Assembly (NCBI RefSeq): GCF_000002425.4
Contig: NC_037267.1
Location: 10,243,398-10,307,397, forward strand
Length of the DNA: 64,000 nucleotides
Direction: 5' to 3'
Origin: Physcomitrium patens
Taxonomy: Eukaryota > Streptophyta > Bryopsida > Funariales > Funariaceae
The position numbers and the translations under genes are program-made. This document shows positions 13,378 to 62,117 of the stretch, one piece after another (within the stretch, counting starts at the first letter, position 1; each line of letters begins with the position of its first letter). The notes below the pieces were generated by a model that had not been told where the DNA came from, did no database searches, and worked only from the letters and a program-made list of their open reading frames with translations.

Positions 13378-16300
13378 CCTGAATCAGCTATGGGAAAACA
13401 TTGGTTCATTGATGGTCGATTTACTGGGGCAACACGCTCTGCTACATGTAACACTGTTTATGACGACCCAATCTGTGTAGGTCACGGTGAGAGCGTTGCG
13501 ACAGTGGAGAACCAGCCCGTTGACGATCACATAGGAAAATTTACATGGACTTTAACAAATTTTGGGAAACTATCCGTGAGGAAGCACTATTCGGACCCGT
13601 TTGTTGTTGGAGGCTACAAATGGTATGTGCGCAGGGTAGCAAATCTTCATTTAAGTAGTACATGCGACGAATTGCTGAATGTCAGTTGAATGCTTGTGAG
13701 TAATCAGGAGTTGCTGGTGCCCGTGTGCAGGCGAGTTTTGTTATTTCCAAGAGGGAATAACGTGGATCAACTTTCTATATATTTAGATGTTGCTGACTCG
13801 AACCAACTGCCGAGTGGCTGGACCAGATTTGCACATTTTAACTTGGCTGTTCTTAATCAATATGAACCCAAGATGTCTGTTCGGAAAGGTTTGGCGTTAC
13901 TTGCCTGCTTATTGTTTTACTTGTTTGTTTCGATGATTTTCAGGTGTCTACAGTGCTGCGATAAATTTAGGTTTCGCTGCGCGTCGTTCATATGAGCTTA
14001 CGAGAATTGAGAGGATTCTTAATTGTATTTATTGTGACAAACGATTTGGTTTGTGGTGAGGTTGGGGGATTCCACGGTCTTATATTTCCCATGGCGACCT
14101 ATTTGCAGATACTCAACATCAGTTCAATGCTCGAGAAAGTGATTGGGGTTTCACCTCATTCATGCCACTACATGAGTTATATGATCTATCGAAAGGTTTT
14201 CTGGTGAATGATACTCTTGTTATAGAAGCTGATGTTAATGCTCCAAAGATGGTGGATTATTGGTCGCATGATTCAAAGAAGGAGACAGGTTTCGTAGGCT
14301 TGAAGAACCAGGGTGCTACGTGCTACATGAATTCGCTTCTTCAAACTTTGTATCATATCCCTTACTTCCGCAAGGTTCCAGTTCCTTCCTCTTTCACTCA
14401 TGTGCAGCCATATAATTCATTTAGCTATAAAGTGCTCACAGTATGTAGTACAAAGTCCTGTTTGTAGTGTATTCTTGTTGCCACCCACGAAAAATGCGGT
14501 GGTCATGATCATATATACTGGTTTCAAATTTGGACAGGCCGTATACCACATGCCTACAACTGAGAATGACGCACCATCTAGCAGCATTCCCCTGGCACTT
14601 CAGAGCTTGTTTTACAAAATGCAGTACAGTGATACCTGCGTTGCCACCAAAGATTTGACGAAGTCTTTCGGATGGGACACTTATGAATCCTTTATGCAAC
14701 ACGATGTTCAGGAACTCAATCGAGTTCTGTGTGAGAAGCTAGAGAATAAAATGAAGGTTTGCCTCTCCTTTTCATATGTACTTTTTCCACGCTCGGAAAC
14801 CCAGAGCTGGTCGTGACAGTTTAGACCTGATATGGCCCACTGACTGAGGTGATATTGTGTTCGTTGATATGTTGTAGAAAAGGCTACATGAGGTTATCCG
14901 AAGTAAAAAAAGCTGTGAACTGTTTATGTAGCGTTCTCGGCGTTGTGGCGGTTGTTGTGCGCGTGAATTCAGTTATTGTGCTTGGGTCAATTTGTGAGAA
15001 GTCTAAAATTTCGATTTCCGACTTACGTAGGGCACGGCAGTGGAGGGGACGATACAAAATCTTTTTGAAGGCCATCATATGAATTATATCGAATGCATCA
15101 ATGTCGATTTTAAGTCCACTCGGAAGGAGTCCTATTATGGTACACTTCTTCTGACTTGATTGACTCTAATGTTGTCCCGAGACAACACTGGGCATGTGGC
15201 TTATCATGGTCGGGCTTTGTTGATCTTCCGTACGCTGCTAGATTTCACTTTAATAATATGTGAAGTAAACGTTGGCAGACTTGCAGCTGGACGTAAAGGG
15301 TTGCAAAAATATTTATGATTCATTTGATAAGTATGTGGAAATCGAGAAGATGGAGGGGGAAAACAAGTATCAAGCAGACCAGTTCGGGTTGCAGGATGCC
15401 AAGAAAGGGGTTCTTTTCATTGATTTCCCTCCAGTCCTTCAGTTGCAGTTGAAACGTTTTGAGTACGACTACATGCGAGACAGTATGGTCAAGGTAGGCC
15501 TGGTTTATACTGCGCTGTATCGGCATGCTTGAACAGCTATACGTTAAGAAGTCAAAAACTACCTTCTTTCAAATGATTGCCACCTATAGCACTTAAGGTT
15601 ATTTTTGTCGGTTTATATTGAATCTATTTAGAATACGGTCAGAACATCGTGATTTTGTGCTCCAGCTAGATAGGATTGAGAATTTTGAACAAAGTATGCG
15701 AAGTTGATTGTCTTATTCCGACAGCTGTCCTTCCTGATAAACGCGGTCTGTTCATTGTGCTCTCTTGGTCCTAATAGTCGTACATATAAGTTACCCTTTT
15801 TCTGATCTTCCAGGTCAATGACCGGTACGAATTTCCATTGCAACTTGATCTGGATAAATACGATGGCAAGTATCTGTCTCCTGATGCTGATCGAAGCGTT
15901 CGAAACTTGTACAGCTTGCACAGGTACGCACATGTGTGAAGCTTGCTTCTTCCTTTCGAATAAAAGTTCATGTAATTATTTATTTGTAATGTAGGTGACT
16001 TCCACAATATTATTGAGTTACGGGGCTACTATTTGTGAGGAAATTAGACCTATCACGGCGTTTTATTTGAGCTTGTGTCTGGTTGAGTTATAGAAAATTC
16101 TTTTACTTATCACCGGTGTACTGGCGCGTATGAAATTGATAAATGTGTGTGTTGTTTCAGTGTGCTGGTACATAGTGGTGGAGTACAGGGAGGACATTAT
16201 TATGCTTTCATCAGACCAACTCTGACAAACCAATGGTGAGTTTTGATGCTACTCCAAGAATAATTTTGATTGGGATTGAAGTATTCAAGAATACTTTGGC

Positions 16301-19300
16301 ATCTAATGTATACGTGTGGAAAACCTGACTGTGCATTTACATAAGCACTAATTTTAGAGCATGTACCTCAATGATTTACTCTCTGCATGATGCAGGGTTT
16401 TGTGTTCTGTGCTTGGTCTCTAAAAAAGATGGAGTCGCTTCTTGTGTATCATCTTAGTCTCTAGTTTGTTCAACAGTTAGTTCAATAGTTTTTCATGCCA
16501 TCGAATGAGATTGCCTCGCTTGGGATACTAGGGGAGCCTCGATTGAGAAAAATGACATTGAAATAATTATATTTGATTCAGGTGACATGTTGTTGACTTA
16601 GATTTTGTTTAGGGAATTTAAATCCGATGTGAATTTTAGCTCAGCTGATGGAAGAAGTGTGTCATGACCCCTGTTAGGTACAAGTTTGATGATGAGCATG
16701 TCACTAAAGAGGAAACCAAGAGAGCTCTCGAAGATCAATATGGTGGGGAAGAGGAGGTAACATTCTTCCTCCGGGAATCGGACACAAACTTATTCATCTG
16801 AATATTAATTTTTGCGTTTTGGGTGTGGTATTATTTTAACATGTCTTCGTATAGTCAGCTGCTTCTTTAGGTGCAATCGTTGGTGTACTTGACGCTTGGA
16901 ATCTATTTCATTGGTCACTAAGTTCATTCTTTTTCTTTTCTTTATGTTCGTGGATATATTGCAATCTCTTTGCAGTTGCCGGCACAAAACCCAGCATATA
17001 ACCAGCCAGCATTCAAGTTCACAAAATACTCAAATGCGTACATGCTGGTGTACATCAGAGATTCTGACAAGGACAAAGTTATATGCAACGTGGATGAGAA
17101 AGACATTGCAGAGCATCTGCAGGTAAATCCTTTACTGGAGTTGGAAGTCGGACGTATTGCTCGTTTTCAGGGCTTAGTCATAAAATTTTTACTTCAAATT
17201 TTGTGTTCAAGGCCAGATCTGCTGCAAATTGACGGTCACGTGGTTGAATTCCATTTGGTGACATTGCAGATACGGCTCAAGAAAGAGCAGGGGGAGAAGG
17301 AGAGGAAAAGAAAGGATAAAGCTGAAGCTCATCTCTACACAGTCCTCAAGGTAGTTTTTTTATGTTTTTGTTTTTGTTTTTTTTCTTTTCCCTTTTCCCT
17401 TTTTCCTTTTTCCTTTGATGCGTGAAGGTTGATGCATCCATGATCGCTTGGGACTATCATCCGATGCCAGCATCTATGTTGTTTAGTCCTTGTACATCAC
17501 TGAGTGATTGATTCCACATATTTTGATGTATGGAACTGGTTGCCAACTGCATGACTGACACCTTCTTGGTACAGATTGCCAGGGATGAAGACCTTTCTAA
17601 TCAAATTGGCAAACAACAGTTTTTTGACCTTGTGGACCATGACTCCGTGAAGAGTTATCGTATTAATCAGGAGGTTCCTTTCAAACAATTCAAGGTAATT
17701 CTGTTTTACACTTAAATTTGTCCATTTTCTTATTTGCTTGGAGAGATTGGATGTTAGTGTATGTAGCCATGGTCTTTAACCACCAGTGACTGTTCTTTCT
17801 GTAAGATGATGGTGCTTAGTGCTTGTAGACAGACAATTAATTATGGATTTCTTCTTGTGGACAGGAAGATGTCGCCAAAGAGATTGGTATTCCTGCGAGT
17901 TGCCAGAGGTACTGGCTGTGGGCTCGGCGGCAGAACCATACTTACCGTCCCAATAAGCCATTGACTGAACAAGAGGAAATGGAAACGGTATGAGCATGCG
18001 GAGATCAAATGCATCTTACTCATAATTGGTTCTGCTATCATTGATTTCTCTGCGAGGATTTCTCTTGCAGCGCTTTCTTAGTAGTTTCGGATGTGATTTT
18101 ATATTTAGAATTTATACATGATACCTGTTACCTACCTCTGGGCTTTATTTATCATTTTCTCTGCGTTTGTAGGTGGGTAAACTGAAAGATGCATCAAACA
18201 AAACACACAACGCTGAGTTGAGGCTTTGGTTGGAGGTGAATTATCAGGTAATTATTTTTCTACTTTTGGTAGCTCTGGAATAAGGTTGGAGATTTGTTTT
18301 AGGAACCAATGGTTCTGGTATATCTTATGTTCCCAGTCTATGCTGCTGTTGCGTAGTCTCAAGTTTATCCACACATGGATTACTTTCAGGAGGGTATTCC
18401 AGCACCTGTTCCAGAAAGAACGAAGGAGGATGTTTTGTTGTTCTTCAAGCTCTATAGTCCAGAAAGAGAAGAACTACGGTACGTTATTATTTCTGGCGTA
18501 TATGTGCTTGCAGCGATTATAGCATGCTATGATCCCATCAGTTGTTTTCAAGTACAATCACCCATCTAAGATTGTTTGTGCATCTCTAATATATTGGAAT
18601 GAGGTAGGAATTACAAATGGATTAGTCGTTGATCTTGTATGAGATTCTAGATTCTAGCAGTTTACATTCTTTCTCAGGTTGAACTGAACTGAAATAGCGT
18701 CTTTATATTTCTCAGGTTTGTTGGGAGGCTGTTCGTTAAAGCTAATGGAAGGCCAGTTGATATCCTCGAAAAGTTGAATCAGATGGCTGGTTTTGCAGCA
18801 AATGAAGAGATCAGGCTGTATGAGGTATTCACAAAATATGCTAAATGAATTGGATAAAGCAAGCCTTCGAGTTTCAATCAATTCAGTCACTCTGTTTTGT
18901 ACCGAAATAGTCTGATATTTTTATAGTTTCCAGTTTTAGCTGTGTTAAAATCATTGGCTGGTGGTTCATGATTGCAGGAAATAAAATTTGACCCAACTGT
19001 TATGTGTGAGCATATTGATAAGAAATCGACCTTCAGAGGCAGCCAGGTAGTCAGGCGCACCAATAATATTTTTGGTTTAGTCATTTCGCATCAATTTGTA
19101 AACACTAATGAGGCTTGTCTTACTTTTGTATGTTCAGATTTTTTGTATACAATCAGATGATGACGCAATCTTGACTGAGTTCAATTTTGTGCTTCAATTT
19201 GAAGCGTACCTTGCCTTGAGTAGTAATATCAATTGGTTGATGGACACATGCAGTTGGAAAATGGTGATATCATATGTTACCAGAAAGCTCGCACAAAGGA

Positions 19301-40623: not shown

Positions 40624-41171
40624 ATCAAATTGTCTAAAGCATGAAACTCAAACAAATGAAAATTTAATACACTCTTGTATCACTCTTACAAAGTAGATAT
40701 TAACTCAAAATTATAATATTGAATTTGGAATGACTATTGTTTAAGACAAAAAGATTAGAGAATCTTAAAATAAGACTTAGGATTAAAAAAATATTCACAA
40801 GAGTGAAAAAAACTTCACTCTTGTTTCCATATATATTATCAAAGTAGGAGCTATATATCAATGTCCTATAGGACCTTTGATACTTGTTCAATTTACAAAT
40901 TACATGTCTTAATTTGTAAGATAAGATTTTATATATGCCCCTCATGATTAACTTGTACCACAAGCTACTAACATGTGTAATAGGTGGCTAACTTATTAGC
41001 AAAGTTTCTGACCTATCAATCAACTAGAAACAGGTGTAAATTCTAAGTCACATCTATGAAGCTTCTAGAAAGTATATCTACAATATATTATCAAAATAAT
41101 TTACTTTAATCTACTTCTACCTATTCATATTATTTAGATAATTATTTGAGTAAATATGTGTGATTGTGAAA
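40624..41171 (-). repeat. 5' LTR of G2 (L family)
   Basis: An LTR of about 548 bp. It contains a TATA-like CATATATATT near 40830. At about 41056-41070, on the U3 side of the TATA, it has a perfect three-unit heat-shock element GAAGCTTCTAGAA. The gag remnant begins just inside it. Confidence 0.78.
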
Positions 41172-54120: not shown

Positions 54121-55824
54121 TGTTGTTGAATTAAAATTTGGCTACCATGTAAAAATAATGTATTTATTTATTTAATATACAATATACTAGATAATATGGT
54201 AAGAGCCATGTTAGTGGATTTTTTTTGGTTATAGGATGTAGATATATTACTATCCCAAAAAGAGATTGTTTAAAAGGGCTTCTATTAGAATTTATATAAC
54301 TTTATTTTTTTTTGATAGTGACTTTTGAAGCTGATTTTATTGGTAGTAACTTTTATACATTTTCATGTTGTAGTTTGGCTACCATGTGAAAATAATGTAT
54401 TTATATATTTAACATATAATTTATTTAACAATATGGTGAGAGCTATGTTGGTTGTAGAATGTAGTTAAATTATTACTTTAAAAGGAGTTTGTTTAAAAAG
54501 ATTACTATTAGAATTTATATAACTTTATTTTTTTTTGATAGTGACTTTTGAAATTAGTTTTATTGGTAGTAACTTTATGCATTTAGAATCACCTTTGTTA
54601 CACATTGGTGATTCTTAAATTTTTATTTTTGTTCTTTAATTTGGTGTATAAGGCATATAATATATAAATCGTATATGAAAAGGGATTGAAGAAGAATTTT
54701 GGTAGCAAAAAAAATAGTTAGGATATCTATATGAATGAATGGAGATGGATGATATAAATCTTCATTCCTATTGGTCAAAAATCATGACCAATGGACTTCA
54801 AGGAGGTTGCTTGAGGCCATATTAGGGATTGGGATTAGTCTTTTAGAAGGATTCAAACATTAAAGGCTGAAGTAGCAAATATATGATTTTCGCTATAGTT
54901 TTGGTGTAAATTTTGAGTCATTTAGAATTTTTATAAAAGAAATATAGGCGCTCAAAGTCAAGATGTTAGTTTTGTATCTACTATTAGTCTTTTGGATATA
55001 AGGCATGCATACAAAAATCAATAGAAGATCAGTGACTAAAATTAAAAAGAATATTTTTTTAGCTATACTTTAAGTATACTATTTGATAAATTTTAAATTG
55101 AAATAAAAGAGATATTGGAAGTTGAAGTCAATGCTTAAAATCTAAAGAGTAGTAAGTAATCTAAATTACTAGTGGTTGTATTTTGAGCTATATCTTGTAC
55201 AATTTGATAAGGTTTTGGCTAATTTTTTAAAAAAATGTGTATTTTCATGTAACTAATTTTTATATATAAGTTTTGTGGCATTTAGATTTTGAATTTGTGA
55301 GATATGAAGAAAATAGAACTTGGGTGCTTATGAATTAGGGTTTTAGAATACATTCTAGAATTTCTCAGATCCTAGACGATCGATATTAAATTTACATTTG
55401 AAAATTTTCAAAGTAATGCTTAAGGATAAATGCTATATTATTTTTAAATTTTATAAAAATTAAAAAATTGAATAAAGAAATATGAATTTTTGAAGTTTAG
55501 AAAGAAGAAATCATTTTCAAGGAAAATATGTTTTGAAAGGGTTTTATTATAATTTAAGCATTTTATATAAAGTAAAGGAGTTTTTGGAAGTCAAGAATTT
55601 ATGTAAATTTTGAAGATGGATATATGGAGCTATGATTAAATTTTAATATAAAGATGAGCTTTTAAGAGGAGATTATAGATTTTCTTTGAAATTATTGAAA
55701 ATCTAGCTTACTAGCAAATAATTAGTTATGATTTGGTATAGCCAAGAATGTTAGGAAATTTCTTGATATTTTAGAAAGCTTTGCCAATATGTTATAATTA
55801 ATCTCTCTGCAGCTAGGTACCTTG
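54121..55824 (+). repeat. R1 repeat, copy a (continues after the nested element)
   Basis: R1 copies begin TGTTGT and this copy ends TAATACAACA at 62151, beyond the inserted chromovirus. Its first part is duplicated in tandem, with a shift of 237 bases (GGCTACCATG at 54140 and 54377). The repeat has no recognisable coding region. Short terminal inverted repeats with TG...CA ends and a length of about 1.45 kb suggest an LTR of an unidentified retroelement, which is an inference. Confidence 0.7.
55820..55824. repeat. Target-site duplication CCTTG (left)
   Basis: CCTTG directly precedes the left LTR and is repeated at 62113-62117 directly after the right LTR. Five bases is the usual duplication size for Ty3/gypsy integration. 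Confidence 0.9.
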
Positions 55825-56319
55825 TGTCACAGACACAAAATACAAACTTGAAATCTAACAAGAAGTTCAAGAAGAAGTGGCAGAACTAGATTAAACAGAT
55901 GAGTACAAGAACAACACCAAAAAGGTGAGCTAGAACTCCAAGAGATGTGTTGTCGAGACTGAAGAACTCTTCAGCCTCGATCCCTATATATACTCCTACT
56001 TAGGAAGCTTCTCGAGCTACTTCTATTAACTAGGAAGCTTCTAAAAGGTTCTAAAGGCTTCCTTTCGAGAGGGTTCTAGAAACTTCTCGAGCTACTTCTA
56101 TTAACTAGGAAGCTTCTAGAAAGTTCCAGGGGATTCTTTTCTAAAAGCTTCTAGAAATTTCTCTTCTAGAAGGTTCCAGAGACTTCCTTTCTAGAAGCTT
56201 CTAGAAACTTCTCTCTAAAAGGTTCCAGAGGCTTCTCTTCTAGAAGGTTCCAAAGGCTTGTTTTCTAGAAGGTTCTAGAAACTTCTCTCTAGAAAGTTCT
56301 AAGGAATATGTCCCTAACA
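55825..56319 (-). repeat. 3' LTR with heat-shock-element array
   Basis: On the minus strand this LTR starts TGTTAGGGAC and ends GTGACA. U3 (about 56000-56319) is filled with alternating TTC/GAA pentamers, including TTCTAGAAGCTTCTAGAA arrangements. A TATA box (complement of TATATATA) lies near 55985, after the array in transcriptional order. The layout is that of a heat-inducible promoter by established HSE rules; activity is not shown. Confidence 0.93.
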
Positions 56320-56366
56320 TCACCCCCTTCTTTAGCTTGGAGGTCTCTGAGAAGCAATGTTGTTGA

Positions 56367-56720
56367 TCAGTACCAACGTAAGAAAATGAAGATCTGTCGC
56401 ATAACTTCTGCTATGAACTCCAACTGTTGTTCACGAGGCAAGTGGTTCATCGAACCTTGAAGCCAACGGTAGTGGCCCACGCCTTCGACTTCTGACCAAG
56501 CCTGAACTTCCGTGTCCTCATTGTGAAATTGTCCTGCAAACACGCCTTCTGGTTGACCATCGTAAGCAGGCTCGATTTCAAATACGATCACCAGTAATCG
56601 GTTACTCGATATCCTCCGTCGTCGTCGTGGTACATGTAGTTCTTCATCTCGGGGTCGCCTTCGTGAGCTACTCGGTTGCGATACTCTGACTGGCATAGTA
56701 TCTATCTCTTGGCTATCCAT
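56367..56720 (-). CDS. Unassigned 117-residue open frame in the young chromovirus
   Basis: A minus-strand open frame between the chromodomain region and the 3' LTR. It begins MDSQEID and carries an arginine-rich stretch (SRRRPRDEELHVPRRRRR, residues about 19-36), then an acidic to neutral part (FEIEPAYDGQPEGVF, QAWSEVEGVGHYRWL) and a hydrophobic end (IFIFLRWY). No family was recognised. It is not part of the standard gag-pol layout. The basic stretch could be a nuclear-localisation or nucleic-acid-binding segment, but that is inference. It has no counterpart that could be read in G1-G3. Confidence 0.5.
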   Translation of the reverse strand: MDSQEIDTMPVRVSQPSSSRRRPRDEELHVPRRRRRISSNRLLVIVFEIEPAYDGQPEGVFAGQFHNEDTEVQAWSEVEGVGHYRWLQGSMNHLPREQQLEFIAEVMRQIFIFLRWY

Positions 56721-56836
56721 ATCAAAAGACCAAACTACGATCTATCTTGGAGAAAATAACTACATCAACTATGAATTTTGCTGGTGCTCTCCTCTTTTCT
56801 TATATTGTTGGAAGAACAAGCTTCAAAAAGAAGCTA

Positions 56837-57427
56837 TCATCGAATTGATTTAGGTTTATCGGGATGTCTTTGATGAAACTCCTGTACCTTTTGTGGCGCA
56901 TTCGCAAGATTTTCAGCTGGCTCCCACGTTCGCTCATTAATGTCATAGCCGCACCAATGAATAAGATATTCTAACTTTCCCCACCTTCGCCGTGAATCCA
57001 ATACCTTTTCAACCTCGTATTCTTCGTGGTTCTCGATTTCAATACTAGGTGGCGGACATTGCACTCTTCCAGGAAAAGATGACTCTCGATAAGGTTTCAA
57101 CAGAGAAACATGAAAGACTTGATGTACCTTCATAGAAGCCGGTAACTCCAGCCGGTATGCCACTAGATTAACTTGCTTCTGGATGATAAATGGTCCCAAT
57201 CTTCGATAGTCCAACTTATCACATGGTCGCTTGGTCTTGATATTTCTTCGAAGAAGCCAGGCTTTGTCTCCAACTTTGAAAGTAGGTGCTGGATTCCGAA
57301 ATCTATCTACAGACGTCTTATAGGATTCTTGAGCGGATTGTAATTGAAGCTTCAACATAGTTTGAAGCTCTGATAGTTGCTTCGCAAATCCTTCAGCTGC
57401 TGGATTGTTATTTGTTGACGGACTCAA
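56837..57427 (-). pseudogene. Integrase C-terminal region and chromodomain (young element)
   Basis: The minus-strand frame contains the integrase tail signature ([48 protein letters not shown]) and a chromodomain ([30 protein letters not shown]). Chromodomains of this group bind histone marks and steer integration toward heterochromatin. It is part of an element whose pol is broken. Confidence 0.93.
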
Positions 57428-58203
57428 TAAATCAAGCTTCGGATGATACCCATAGTTGGAAAAGAATGGTGTTTGTTGAGTCGACGCATGGAGGGTGTTG
57501 TTATATGCAAACTCGGCTAGCGGTAGATATGCAGTCCAATCGTCTTGCTGATAGTTGATGCTGCATTGTAAGTACTACTCCAAGACTTCTTTCATCCGTT
57601 CCGTTTGGCCATCAGTTTGAGGATGGAAAGCTGAAGAAAGCTTGATATCCACCTTCAATATCCCAAAGAGAGATCTTCAAAACTTTGACACGAACTGGGT
57701 ACCTCGATCTGATATGTATCATCTGGTAGTCCATGATATCGATACACATTATCGAGAAAGAGTCTTGCTGTGACTTCACTGGACGATGTCTTCTTACAAG
57801 GAACAAAGTGTGCCATCTTCGTAAGCCGATCTACCACAACAAAGATGTTGTCAAATGAGTTTGATGATGGCAAGTCCGTGATGAAGTCCATAGAAATTGA
57901 AGACCATGGTCGATGTGGAATTAGCAATGGCTGTAGAAGTTCATAAGGGCGATGCCGAGGATTCTTAGATCTTGAACAGATGTCACAAGAGAGGACAAAA
58001 TCTTTCACATCCTTCTACATTTGGGACCACCAAAAATCTCGAGAAATAAGCTCCAAGGTCTTGTTGAATCCAAAATGTCCCGCAGCTGGAAAATCATGGC
58101 GAGATTGAAGAACTCGGAGTCGTGGTAGTCCTTTTGGAATGTACAATCGCTCTTCAAAGTATAAAAGATCTCCCTCTACCTTGAACTTGTCGTCATTAGT
58201 ACG
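57428..58203 (-). pseudogene. Integrase core region (young element)
   Basis: Peptides on the minus strand include CDICSRSKNPRHRPYELLQP (zinc-binding end), SMDFITDLPSSNSFDNIF and VVDRLTKMAHFVPC (catalytic core). The order matches Ty3/gypsy integrases. It is fossil. Confidence 0.9.
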
Positions 58204-59040
58204 TTACTTGATATCAATGGCTACTGAATCTTTAATGGTCATAGCACGTACCTGGTTTAGGAAGTCAACATCAAATAATACAATAGTAGCACAAAGTTGA
58301 AATCTCTCTGGCTTCAATAACGTTGTACATTGTTGATCAAATGCTGCTTCTCCAGCCTTTGGTACAAGATACGATCTCCTTGATAAAGCATCGGATAGTC
58401 CTTGCTGCCTTCCAGGTCGATAAGTGATAACAAAATCGAATCTAGATAGCGACATATTCCACCGAGCTTGACGCCGATTTAAAACTCGAGCCGTCATAAA
58501 ATACTCCAAATTCTTGTGATCCGTATATACGATTACTGGATGTGTAGCTCCTTCAAGAAAGTGACGCCATTCTTCGAAAGAATCCACTATAGTAAGAAGT
58601 TCCTTATCGTGGATCTCATAATTGATTTCAGCAGTAGAGAACTTCCGAGAATAGAATGCAACTAGATGGAGCTTCTTATCTTCACTCATTTGTGAAAGCA
58701 CAGCTCCCAAAGCAAAATCTGAAGCATCAGTTTCTAAATAGAAGGCCTTTGTAAAGTCTAGATGTACCAAAATTGGAGCTGTAGTAAATGCTGTCTTCAA
58801 ATCTTGAAACGCCTTCTCCGCCAAAGGTCCCCATTCCAACTTATCCTTGCATGTTAATCGAGTGAGAGGAGCAGCAACTTGAGAATAATTCTTGATGAAG
58901 ATCCGATAGAAGTTAGCAAAACCAAGAAAGTATTGTACGTCTCTAACCATCTTCGGAACCTCCCAAGACATGATTGCTTCTACTTTCTTGGGGTCCATCT
59001 TCAAACCTTCTGTAGTCACAATGAACCCCAAAAATTCCAT
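58204..59040 (-). pseudogene. RT end and RNase H (young element)
   Basis: This 278-residue frame begins MEFLGFIVTTEGLKMDPKKV, the end of RT. It continues through the tether (FLGFANFYRIFIKNYSQVAA) to RNase H (YLETDASDFALGAVLSQ, YTDHKNLEYF, ARWNMSLSRFDF). Well preserved in itself. Confidence 0.93.
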
Positions 59041-59046
59041 CTCCGT

Positions 59047-59646
59047 CTAGTGAAATAAATACTTTTCTAATTTGGCATATAGTCCTCGCTTGCGTAGTTT
59101 CTCCAAGACCAAATGAACATGCTCGTCATGCTCTTCCTCGTTTATAGAGAATATTAGAATATCGTCCAAGTAGATGACAACAAAATCGTCGAGGTGTTCT
59201 CGAAAGATGTCATTCATCATATGTTGGAAAATCGCTGGAGCATTGGTAAGACCAAAAGGCATGACATTATATTCGAAATGACCATACCTTGTACGGAATA
59301 CTGTCTTCCACTCATCTCCTTCCTTGATTCGTACGAGATTATAAGCTCCCCTTAGATCAATTTTTGTAAAGATCTTCGAACGTCCAAGTTGTTCTAAGAG
59401 ACTAGAAATCAAAAGTAATGGGTAACAATTTTTCTTTGTTACCTTGTTGAGGCCTCGATAGTCCACACACATCCATAATGATCCATCTTTCTTCTTCACA
59501 AATAAGATGGGTGCTCTAGCTGATGATTTTGAATGACGAATGAAGTTCTTGGCTAGATTTTCGTCGATGTATTTTCGTAACTCTGCCAATTCCGTTTGCG
59601 ATAGATTGTAAATTGGGCCAAAAAGTGGTTGTGCTCCTTCTTGCAA
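59047..59646 (-). pseudogene. Reverse transcriptase core (young element)
   Basis: A 199-residue frame with [49 protein letters not shown] and the active-site [12 protein letters not shown]. It is the best reference in the window for the RT remnants in G1, G2 and G3. Confidence 0.95.
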
Positions 59647-59667
59647 GTCTATGGCACAATCATATGG

Positions 59668-60330
59668 TCAGTATTCCGGTAGTATGTTGGCGTTCTTCTT
59701 TTGAAACACGTCTTCAAAATCTTTATATTGCTCCGATATAGTTGCTGTTGAGATCTTCTCCTCGGTAGTTGGAGCCGTATAAATGACAAATGGAGTGCCT
59801 TCTTTAGATGATCTTATAAACGCTCTTGCTCCAATGAATAAGGATTTCTTTTTTCGAGGTTTTTTACTAGGTTTTTTCTTGGGTGGTTTTGTGGGAAAAG
59901 TCATCTTCTGCAACCTCCAATCTATCAATGGATTATGTTTTTCTAACCAAGAAAGACCAAGAATAATAGGATTTGATGGGGTTCTAATAATATTAAAAAT
60001 AATATGACTACTATGGTCTTTAAACGTTACTTCAATAGGTTTTGATTCATGGATGATACTACCAGATAATAAAGGTCGCCCATCTATGACCTCAACATGA
60101 ACAGGTTTTGATTTTTGTACTAAAGGGATCTTATGACGCTTTGCAAATTCTTCGTCTTAAAAACAAGCAGATGCTCCTGAGTCTAGTAGTACTAAGGTTC
60201 TCAGTTTTTGAGGGCCAATAAACAGAGGGATTGTAAAACAAAGTGCAGGTTGGGCAGAAAGAAAGGAACCTGATTGTTGTTGGGATATTTCATTGTCCAG
60301 CCGCACGGTTCCTACTGTGGCTGGGCATCC
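59668..60330 (-). pseudogene. Aspartic protease region (young element)
   Basis: The minus strand at 60172-60183 encodes the DSGA active-site motif. Downstream HVEVIDGRP and the ILGLSWLEKHNPLIDW segment complete the domain, followed by a lysine-rich linker (KPPKKKPSKKPRKKK) at about 59830-59890. It is fossil. Confidence 0.85.
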
Positions 60331-60338
60331 TCGTTTTC

Positions 60339-61337
60339 CTAAACAAATACTCTCCTAGTCTTGACTATGCCTCGATTTTGCTTTTTGAGGCAGTTTCCGA
60401 CTTTGTGGCCTTCTCCACCCCAATACAAGCATAAATTTTCCTCCATACGTCGCTTTTTTTCTTCTATAATAAGAGATTTGATACGTACTGCATCAATTTG
60501 CATGTCTTCCACCTCTGAATGCGAATTCACACCGCTTGCCGACATAGTTGGAGCGTGGCGAATTGTATGTTGTCTTGAGCGTTGGTCTTGGCGACGTTGG
60601 AATAGGCGATTATCGCACTTCATAGCTTGGCTAATGGCTTCATTGAGCGTTCGTGGATCAGGAAGAGTTAATAGCAAATCCTTCACATCATCTCTTAAAC
60701 CCCAATAAAATTGACTCATCAACGCTTCTTCATCCCAATTGATGTCGCATACTAATTGCCTGAAATCCGAAGCATAGACTGATGTAGAATGCATCCGTTG
60801 TCGTAGCGACCGGATCTTTGTTGTAGCCCATCGAACCTTATCGTGTTCACCAAATGCTTCTGCAAATGCTTCCAAAAAGGTTTCGAAGTTGTTTAATATG
60901 GATGATCGTTTCTCAAACAAAGGAACAAACCATGATAGAGCTTGTCCCGTAAGTAAGGTTCCAACAAGCCCAACACGTGACTCCTCCGTTGGATATCATT
61001 CGGGCTGTAAAACTGTTATCAACCTGATTTGATTGACGAATCCTCGAAACTTGGAACGTGTTCCATCAAACTTATCTGGAAGGCTAATTCGAGGCTCTTT
61101 ATGTTATAGAACTAGTGGTTCTTGTCGAACCTGAGGTAAAGTTGTTTCTCCAAGTGCCGAAATTTGAGGCTGGTGTAGTTTAGATTGTGCTATCCCAGAT
61201 ACTCCATCATTATGAAGCCTTGCCACCACTCCTTCAATCTCTGCAGTTCTTTGTGATAACGTAGCGAAGGCATTCATAATAGCATCTAACTTAGACTCCG
61301 AACTTTCTGTCATACTAATGTCTTGACCTCCGGCCAT
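60339..61337 (-). pseudogene. gag region (young element)
   Basis: The start of gag at 61104-61337 is MAGGQDISMTESSESKLDA. The main Retrotrans_gag segment at 60339-60920 contains LNNFETFLEAFAEAFGEHDK, FRQLVCDINWDEEALMSQFY and GLRDDVKDLLLTLPDP. A zinc-knuckle-like stretch ends it (GGEGHKVGNCLKK). It is fossil. Confidence 0.9.
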
Positions 61338-61618
61338 TCTAAAAGAAGGACAAAAATGATCCTATAAGAGGCAATATTGGTTTATAGGAGGGTAATCCAC
61401 AACCTATAAAACGCCTTAAGAATTTCAAAAAGAGGGGTAATCCACTCTCTCCAAGAAGAATAAGACTCCAATATTGTAACATAAGAAGTATCAGTTTAGA
61501 GGAGGGTAATCCGCAACCTCTAAAAAATGCTAGTATACCTTCAAGTGGAAGGGTAATCCACACTCTGTTAAGAAAGAACTAGCTCTGATATCTCAAGTTA
61601 GTGTAGTCTCGACAAACT

Positions 61619-62112
61619 GTCACGGACACAAAATACAGACTTGAAATCTAACAAGAAGTTCAAGAAGAACTGGCAGAACTAGATTAAACAGATGAGTACA
61701 AGAACAACACCAGAAAGGTGAGCTAGAACTCCAAGAGATGTATTGTCAAGACTGAAGAACTCTTCAGCCTCGATCCCTATATATACTCCTACTTAAGAAG
61801 CTTCTCGAGCTACTTCTATTAATTAGGAAGCTTCTAGAAGGTTCCAGAGGCTTCCTTTCTAGAAGGTTCTAGAAACTTCTCGAGCTACTTCTATTAACTA
61901 GGAAGCTTCTAGAAAGTTCCAGGGGATTCTTTTCTAGAAGCTTCTAGAAACTTCTCTTCTAGAAGGTTCCAGAGACTTCCTTTCTAGAAGCTTTTAGAAA
62001 CTTCTCTCTAAAAGGTTCCAGAGGCTTCTCTTCTAGAAGGTTCCAGAGGCTTGTTTTCTAGAAGGTTCTAGAAACTTCTCTCTAGAAAGTTCTAAAGAAT
62101 ATGTCCCTATCA
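61619..62112 (-). repeat. 5' LTR with heat-shock-element array
   Basis: A pair to 55825-56319. About eleven TTCTAGAA palindromes were counted in roughly 290 bases (about 61800-62095), many extended to four or five perfect alternating pentamers. A TATA-like motif lies near 61780, 3' of the array in the transcriptional sense. The primer-binding-like site follows at 61583-61592. Confidence 0.94.
61800..62095 (-). promoter_or_regulatory. Heat-shock-element array in U3
   Basis: Heat-shock transcription factors bind inverted GAA/TTC pentamers (nGAAn). Here runs such as TTCTAGAAGGTTCTAGAA and TTCTAGAAGCTTCTAGAA repeat with a period of about 10 or multiples of it. The matching array in the other LTR lies at about 56005-56300. 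Motif presence is seen directly; heat response is inferred. Confidence 0.9.
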
Positions 62113-62117
62113 CCTTG
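62113..62117. repeat. Target-site duplication CCTTG (right)
   Basis: The partner of 55820-55824. The sequence resumes the R1 copy a directly. Confidence 0.9.

Follow-up and report, generated by a model that had tools for sequence, protein, structure and literature searches.

Both long terminal repeats (LTRs) of a Ty3/gypsy chromovirus in the 64,000-nucleotide stretch of Physcomitrium patens DNA analyzed here (the window) were found to contain a dense array of heat shock elements (HSEs), arranged in an exact 5-bp alternating register and located upstream of the TATA box. The array is present in the copies of the family that were read and in a sister type, and is nearly absent from the dominant related family. 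The best explanation, to which we assign a probability of about 0.64, is that the U3 region is a promoter for heat shock factors (HSFs), and that the element is a heat-driven, self-primed Tcn1-type chromovirus which would spread in bursts tied to heat or stress.

The Element and Its Age

The chromovirus copy spans window positions 55825 to 62112 on the minus strand, as do all of its features given below. The 5′ LTR (61618 to 62112) and the 3′ LTR (55825 to 56319) are each 495 bp in length and of the form TG...CA, and the element is bordered by two perfect copies of a duplicated 5-bp target site, CAAGG, the upstream one at 62113 to 62117 and the downstream one at 55820 to 55824. The preliminary description of this DNA had placed the 3′ LTR at the same coordinates, and its start of the 5′ LTR, 61619, is corrected here to 61618, making this LTR one base longer.

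Pfam matches were obtained in the order gag, reverse transcriptase, RNase H and integrase C terminus with chromodomain: a gag piece at 60339 to 60920 (Retrotrans_gag), and pol pieces at 59047 to 59646 (reverse transcriptase, RVT_1), 58204 to 59040 (RNase H, RT_RNaseH) and 56837 to 57427 (integrase C-terminal SH3 domain and chromodomain, SH3_Tf2-1 and chromodomain matches). These matches identify a Ty3/gypsy chromovirus, in agreement with the preliminary description, and membership in ONSEN/COPIA78 is ruled out by the Ty3/gypsy domains and the chromodomain. A Pfam search of positions 57655 to 58008, between the RNase H and SH3 pieces, gave no match, leaving the integrase core itself unmatched. 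The purine-rich stretch adjoining the 3′ LTR (56320 to 56330), read from the letters, is likely to be the polypurine tract. Among the best 120 of 5046 pol similarity hits listed, those with a named organism came from Adiantum (67%) and Rhizopus (51 to 54%). The best reading of the element is that it is probably a Tcn1-type chromovirus. A 117-amino acid open reading frame (ORF) that separates the chromodomain piece from the 3′ LTR (56367 to 56720) had no Pfam match.

The pol sequence of the window copy is split over several ORFs, and so the copy is decayed. Of the 495 sites of its LTRs, 19 differ between the two (K2P distance 0.040), which corresponds to about 2.2 My at 9e-9, the rate used in earlier work on this moss (PMC7466625). 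Four other LTR pairs of the family with matching 5-bp duplications gave K2P ages of 0.23, 0.57, 0.68 and 0.68 My, and a fifth pair was dropped from the dating because its shared upstream flank marks a duplicated segment. The array family has recent insertions and the window copy is older, such that "young," the term applied previously to the element, is appropriate for the family (0.2 to 0.7 My in the four other copies) and not for the window copy itself. On C11, the places L053 and L054, about 11 kb apart, have identical 5′ LTRs and the same upstream flank, and represent a duplicated segment and not two insertions. At L052 on C6, the LTR adjoins element interior on neither side and has flanks that nearly match, and it is probably a solo LTR.

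The HSE Array in the Window LTRs

The array of the 5′ LTR lies at 61797 to 62092 (LTR positions 21 to 316, about 296 bp) and contains 11 copies of TTCTAGAA, 15 perfect triplets and five runs of four to five units, and that of the 3′ LTR (56004 to 56299) contains 9 copies of TTCTAGAA, 12 perfect triplets and three such runs. The successive alternating GAA/TTC runs are 5, 3, 3, 5, 4, 5 and 4 units long in the 5′ LTR, and 5, 3, 5, 3, 3, 4 and 3 units long in the 3′ LTR, which gives 8 and 5 4-mers and 3 and 2 5-mers, respectively. In dinucleotide-preserving shuffles of the LTRs, the mean number of TTCTAGAA was 0.16 to 0.18 and that of triplets was about 0.02, compared to the 15 and 12 triplets observed, and none of 5000 shuffles reached the observed counts for either LTR. 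A chance origin of the array is thereby ruled out, and the earlier claim of a dense array in both LTRs holds up in the motif scan against a shuffled background that had been suggested as a check.

The spacing of the units was evaluated by counting pairs of GAA/TTC cores on opposite strands of the 5′ LTR. It was found that 26 pairs are at exactly 5 bp and 6 at 10 bp, with 0 to 1 pairs at each other offset within 3 to 12. This strict 5-bp offset is the HSE rule and not generic purine richness, and so a purine-rich repeat lacking the HSE register was rejected as a description of the array. Within the whole window, 27 of the 29 triplets and all 13 4-mers fall inside the two LTRs. The U3 contains some CG and CHG sites, and therefore methylation could silence it.

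Family Copies and a Sister Type

A genome search with the window LTR returned at least 40 LTR places of 493 to 494 bases, which are the closest matches by construction. LTRs were read at 25 of 40 places, and together with the window 3′ LTR, these make 26 distinct LTRs, all of which keep 9 to 12 copies of TTCTAGAA and 12 to 18 triplets. Because the 26 LTRs were picked by similarity, this comparison of HSE numbers between copies, also suggested in the preliminary description, makes the array a feature of the family and says nothing on selection. The family LTRs carry 6 to 10 sites of the close form GAAG[CT]TTCTAGA, counted on both strands. Each of 14 LTR rows of the family and the sister type was enriched in HSEs, with the observed level reached in 0 of 1000 shuffles per row.

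The sister type is represented by the places L017 and L018. Alignment of the L018 LTR with the window LTR begins at position 278 (92% identity from there), and the remainder gives only short matches. The L018 U3 contains 10 GAAnnTTC and 3 TTCnnGAA sites, the upstream part being composed largely of other units (GAATATTC, AGATTC and TTAGAAGGTTC), with 13 core pairs at offset 5 and no more than 5 at each of the remaining offsets between 3 and 12. The L017 LTR is 80% identical to that of L018 and 73% identical to the window LTR over its length. Therefore, L017 and L018 represent one case of U3 turnover and not two.

It could be argued that the array is a by-product of the tandem duplication of a short palindromic unit and has no regulatory role. 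Repeat units of 25, 50 and 75 bp in tandem are evident within the array, a single distinct sister type was seen, and among the near-identical LTRs (29 rows, three of which repeat an LTR already in the set) the cores of the HSEs are variable at 13 of 114 sites compared to 36 of 208 elsewhere in U3, a slight difference in raw counts. However, the sister type is built largely of other units and nevertheless keeps the 5-bp register, and the window type, L018 and L029 all have a GAAGCTTC adjoining the TATA box. We consider a duplication by-product to be rather improbable. If U3 is instead an HSF promoter, selection may be the cause of the retention of the array.

Contrast with the RLG1-Like Family

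The relatives of the array family were evaluated in a genome sample of 20 systematic 10-kb places on C1 and C2 (200 kb, 33.5% GC). In the same assembly, a predicted allene oxide cyclase exon matches PDB 4h6b, a P. patens protein, at all of 132 residues, which fits the host. Counting hits over 250 bp, 14 of the 20 places contained relatives with 64 to 71% identity to the interior of the window element, and 2 of the 20 contained matches of 80% or more. Because RLG1 is the most abundant gypsy family of P. patens, these frequencies speak against the array family itself being RLG1, within the limits of a small sample. The dominant related family, with LTRs near 557 bp, is probably RLG1, judging by its abundance. 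The RLG1, RLG2 and RLG3 families share host and superfamily with the array family, and the probable RLG1 also shares the core promoter and the self-priming layout. In contrast to the array family, none of the seven less diverged LTR rows of the RLG1-like family contains a perfect triplet. A full-length, strand-independent count gave 0 perfect triplets for the LTR pairs in L020, L023 and L036, which are 86 to 92% identical within pairs and hence are not young.

The five LTRs of the family or sister type in the sample, at L017, L018 and L029, contain 4 to 19 triplets each. These five LTRs (2301 of the 200,000 bases) hold 37 of the 41 triplets and all 18 4-mers of the sample, although they come from three places and the sample is small, which makes the genome-wide share of triplets uncertain. 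Human satellite III repeats recruit HSF1, and on this model the share found in the sample raises the idea that most strong HSF sites in the moss genome belong to the array family, which on heat shock would transcribe itself and, through its heterochromatic LTRs, would also act as a genome-wide sink for HSFs. We regard this idea as improbable; if true, such a sink would influence how large the heat response of the moss becomes and how it decays.

The core promoters of the array family and the RLG1-like family can be aligned (79% identity over 56 nt), and so the two families differ mainly in the upstream region. A single HSE triplet was observed at one homologous place in three more diverged RLG1-like LTRs, at L025 (3676), at L026 (4661) and around position 41058 of the window. 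These LTRs are 67 to 79% identical to that of L023, and the triplet reads TTTCTAGAAGCTTC on the sense strand. The L025 and L026 triplets are two of the four in the sample that lie outside the family LTRs, and the triplet around 41058 is one of the two outside them in the window. At the same place, the seven less diverged LTRs have related, broken forms only: six begin with GAAGCTTC, which is followed out of register by TAGAAGCTTC, intact in one LTR and decayed in the others, and the seventh has TTCTAGAA with a broken partner. This shared place suggests that the ancestral stock of both families probably carried one weak HSE, a proto-HSE, which was multiplied in one lineage. Such a history would parallel that of ONSEN, in which the 4P HRE arose by duplication of a proto-HRE (PMC3907296, PMC5059998).

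The palindromes might alternatively act as RNA structure at the 3′ end of the transcript, in packaging, stability or double-stranded RNA, and not as DNA sites. The U3 RNA of the window 5′ LTR does fold more stably than 60 shuffles (z of -5.5), and z values of -3.7 to -7.5 were obtained for five other LTRs of the family and sister type. However, two RLG1-like LTRs without arrays gave z values of -3.6 and -3.9, and hairpins need no fixed 5-bp register. Because array-free LTRs also fold stably, RNA structure does not single out the array family and was ruled out as its distinguishing feature, and we regard this role for the palindromes as very improbable.

Core Promoter, Predicted Transcript Start and Probable Self-Priming

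About 10 bp separate the end of the array from the TATA box downstream of it (61780 to 61785; LTR positions 328 to 333), which agrees with the earlier placement of the array upstream of this box in the element's own sense. The GAAGCTTC nearest to the TATA box lies at 61797 to 61804 (LTR 309 to 316) and is found at the same place in L018 and in both L029 LTRs; in the L017 LTR, the nearest GAAGCTTC is further upstream of the TATA box than in the window type.

Downstream of the TATA box, the predicted transcript start coincides with a candidate self-primer stretch at 61743 to 61753 (LTR 360 to 370). This stretch is of the AGTCTCGACAA type, from which the window 5′ LTR differs by one substitution, and its complement, TTGTCGAGACT, is at 61605 to 61615 and begins 3 nt past the LTR end. 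In five of seven family 5′ LTRs (L003, L005, L006, L017 and L029), a complement of 11 to 12 nt located 3 nt past the LTR end pairs with the stretch beginning at LTR position 359 to 360 or its counterpart. In the window copy and in L004, the remaining two of the seven, the self-primer complement carries substitutions. The RLG1-like places L020 and L023 have a different sequence pair that is equally paired in the same layout. Shuffled controls (100 shuffles per case) gave complements of 9 to 12 nt at most, and so length is not decisive, and the case for a self-primer is carried by its fixed place, its recurrence and the covariation between families.

These features indicate that self-priming of the Tf1 type probably replaces the tRNA primer site in the array family. 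If the self-primer is the 5′ end of the RNA, transcription would start at LTR position 360, 32 nt after the TATA box, and the whole array would be promoter sequence; the layout thus suggests a start at this position. Most members of the Tcn1 clade are predicted to self-prime (PMC6317226). Like the array family, this clade of mosses, club mosses and fungi combines a chromodomain with non-seed-plant hosts (PMC6317226, PMC2864245). In contrast, SM-Tcn1 of Selaginella is described as having neither tRNA priming nor self-priming (PMC2864245).

Heat as the Proposed Trigger

We propose that heat would release host HSFs, the trimers of which would bind to several adjacent perfect HSEs of four to five units upstream of the TATA box. 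Transcription, driven by the bound HSFs, would begin about 32 nt past the TATA box, and transcripts would rise. The RNA would then fold onto its own 5′ end and prime reverse transcription, as in Tf1-like self-priming, and the element would spread in bursts linked to heat or a related stress. The preliminary description had called the LTR a heat-inducible promoter, for which the architecture speaks (the register, the position adjacent to the TATA box and the HSE-rich U3 of the sister type), and HSF binding and induction remain predictions. Upstream of the TATA box, the window LTRs have at least one 4P HRE (a minimum of four alternating units side by side), as in ONSEN. In Brassicaceae, 4P HREs accompany heat induction of up to a thousand-fold (PMC5059998).

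Published expression of P. patens gypsy families points both ways. In RNA-seq, RLG2 was up with heat and ABA, whereas RLG1, the most abundant gypsy family, was expressed in protonema and repressed by heat, and the recently mobile RLG3 was undetected in a data set with heat among its conditions (PMC7466625). The array family may correspond to RLG2, to RLG3 or to none of the named families. If it is RLG3, the proposal of a heat-driven promoter would be weakened, and the fall of RLG1, probably a relative, under heat also counts against it.

The array could bind HSFs and yet have another main trigger, such as ABA, dehydration or a developmental HSF, or it could serve in repression by a class B HSF. 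Several HSF classes use HSEs, which would allow such a role, and the array motif resembles the motif of the rapid, transient heat module of P. patens, which argues against it. The response of RLG2 to ABA as well as heat, and the expression of the stress-repressed RLG1 in protonema (PMC7466625), are in line with a trigger other than heat; however, heat induction in Brassicaceae is correlated with the presence of 4P HREs (PMC5059998). On balance, we consider a main trigger other than heat unlikely, and heat-released HSFs remain our preferred explanation for the array.

Comparison with Known Systems

HSE-driven LTRs are best known from copia elements of Brassicaceae. As in ONSEN/COPIA78, the LTR promoter of the moss family has alternating nGAAn HREs, which in ONSEN are bound by HSFA2 (PMC3907296, PMC5059998). 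The two differ in superfamily, ONSEN being Ty1/copia and the array family being Ty3/gypsy with a chromodomain. They also differ in the number of sites: full-length ONSEN of A. thaliana is described as having one 4P and one gap HRE, compared to five (5′) and three (3′) runs of four to five units in the window LTRs. Moreover, the heat response of ONSEN has been demonstrated, whereas that of the moss family is predicted.

The LTRs of the Cryptococcus retrotransposons TCN3 and TCN12 also contain putative HSEs, and these elements are mobile at 37 °C (PMC12810828). TCN3 is a Ty3/gypsy element of about 6.3 kb with 5-bp target-site duplications, and its insertions were recovered at 37 °C and not at 30 °C (PMC12810828). 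Unlike the moss family, the host is a fungus and mobility has been demonstrated; two putative HSEs are given for TCN3 and one for TCN12, and a dense array is not described in that account (PMC12810828). HSE-bearing LTRs are already known as a kind, including that of a Ty3/gypsy element in Cryptococcus (PMC12810828). The preliminary description had expected so dense an array in a Ty3/gypsy chromovirus to be a case distinct from ONSEN; this requires softening, given that TCN3 with two putative HSEs has been published (PMC12810828). Substantial numbers of HSEs are also reported for Caenorhabditis Helitrons, which are DNA transposons and do not have them in an LTR promoter (PMC6927752). Among the open-licence PMC matches listed, none was found that reports HSEs in moss LTR retrotransposons or HSE arrays in the Tcn1 clade.

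If the proposed heat-driven promoter is correct, the strategy known from Brassicaceae copia elements, and putatively from Cryptococcus gypsy elements, would have evolved independently in another superfamily and on the opposite side of the land-plant tree. The moss LTRs have up to five strong HSEs each, compared to at most one weak HSE in a related family whose core promoter can be aligned to theirs, and these two families in one genome provide a built-in contrast. Stress-linked transposon transcription would then be measurable in a haploid model plant, and a heat-driven family may account for which of the P. patens families become mobile under stress.

Elsewhere in the window, in a stretch of higher GC from 12 to 24 kb, we observed two ORFs on the plus strand, at 14400 to 14816 and 16970 to 17425, the first with a match to ubiquitin carboxyl-terminal hydrolase (UCH) and the second without a Pfam match. 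We take these ORFs to resemble plant UBP12/13.
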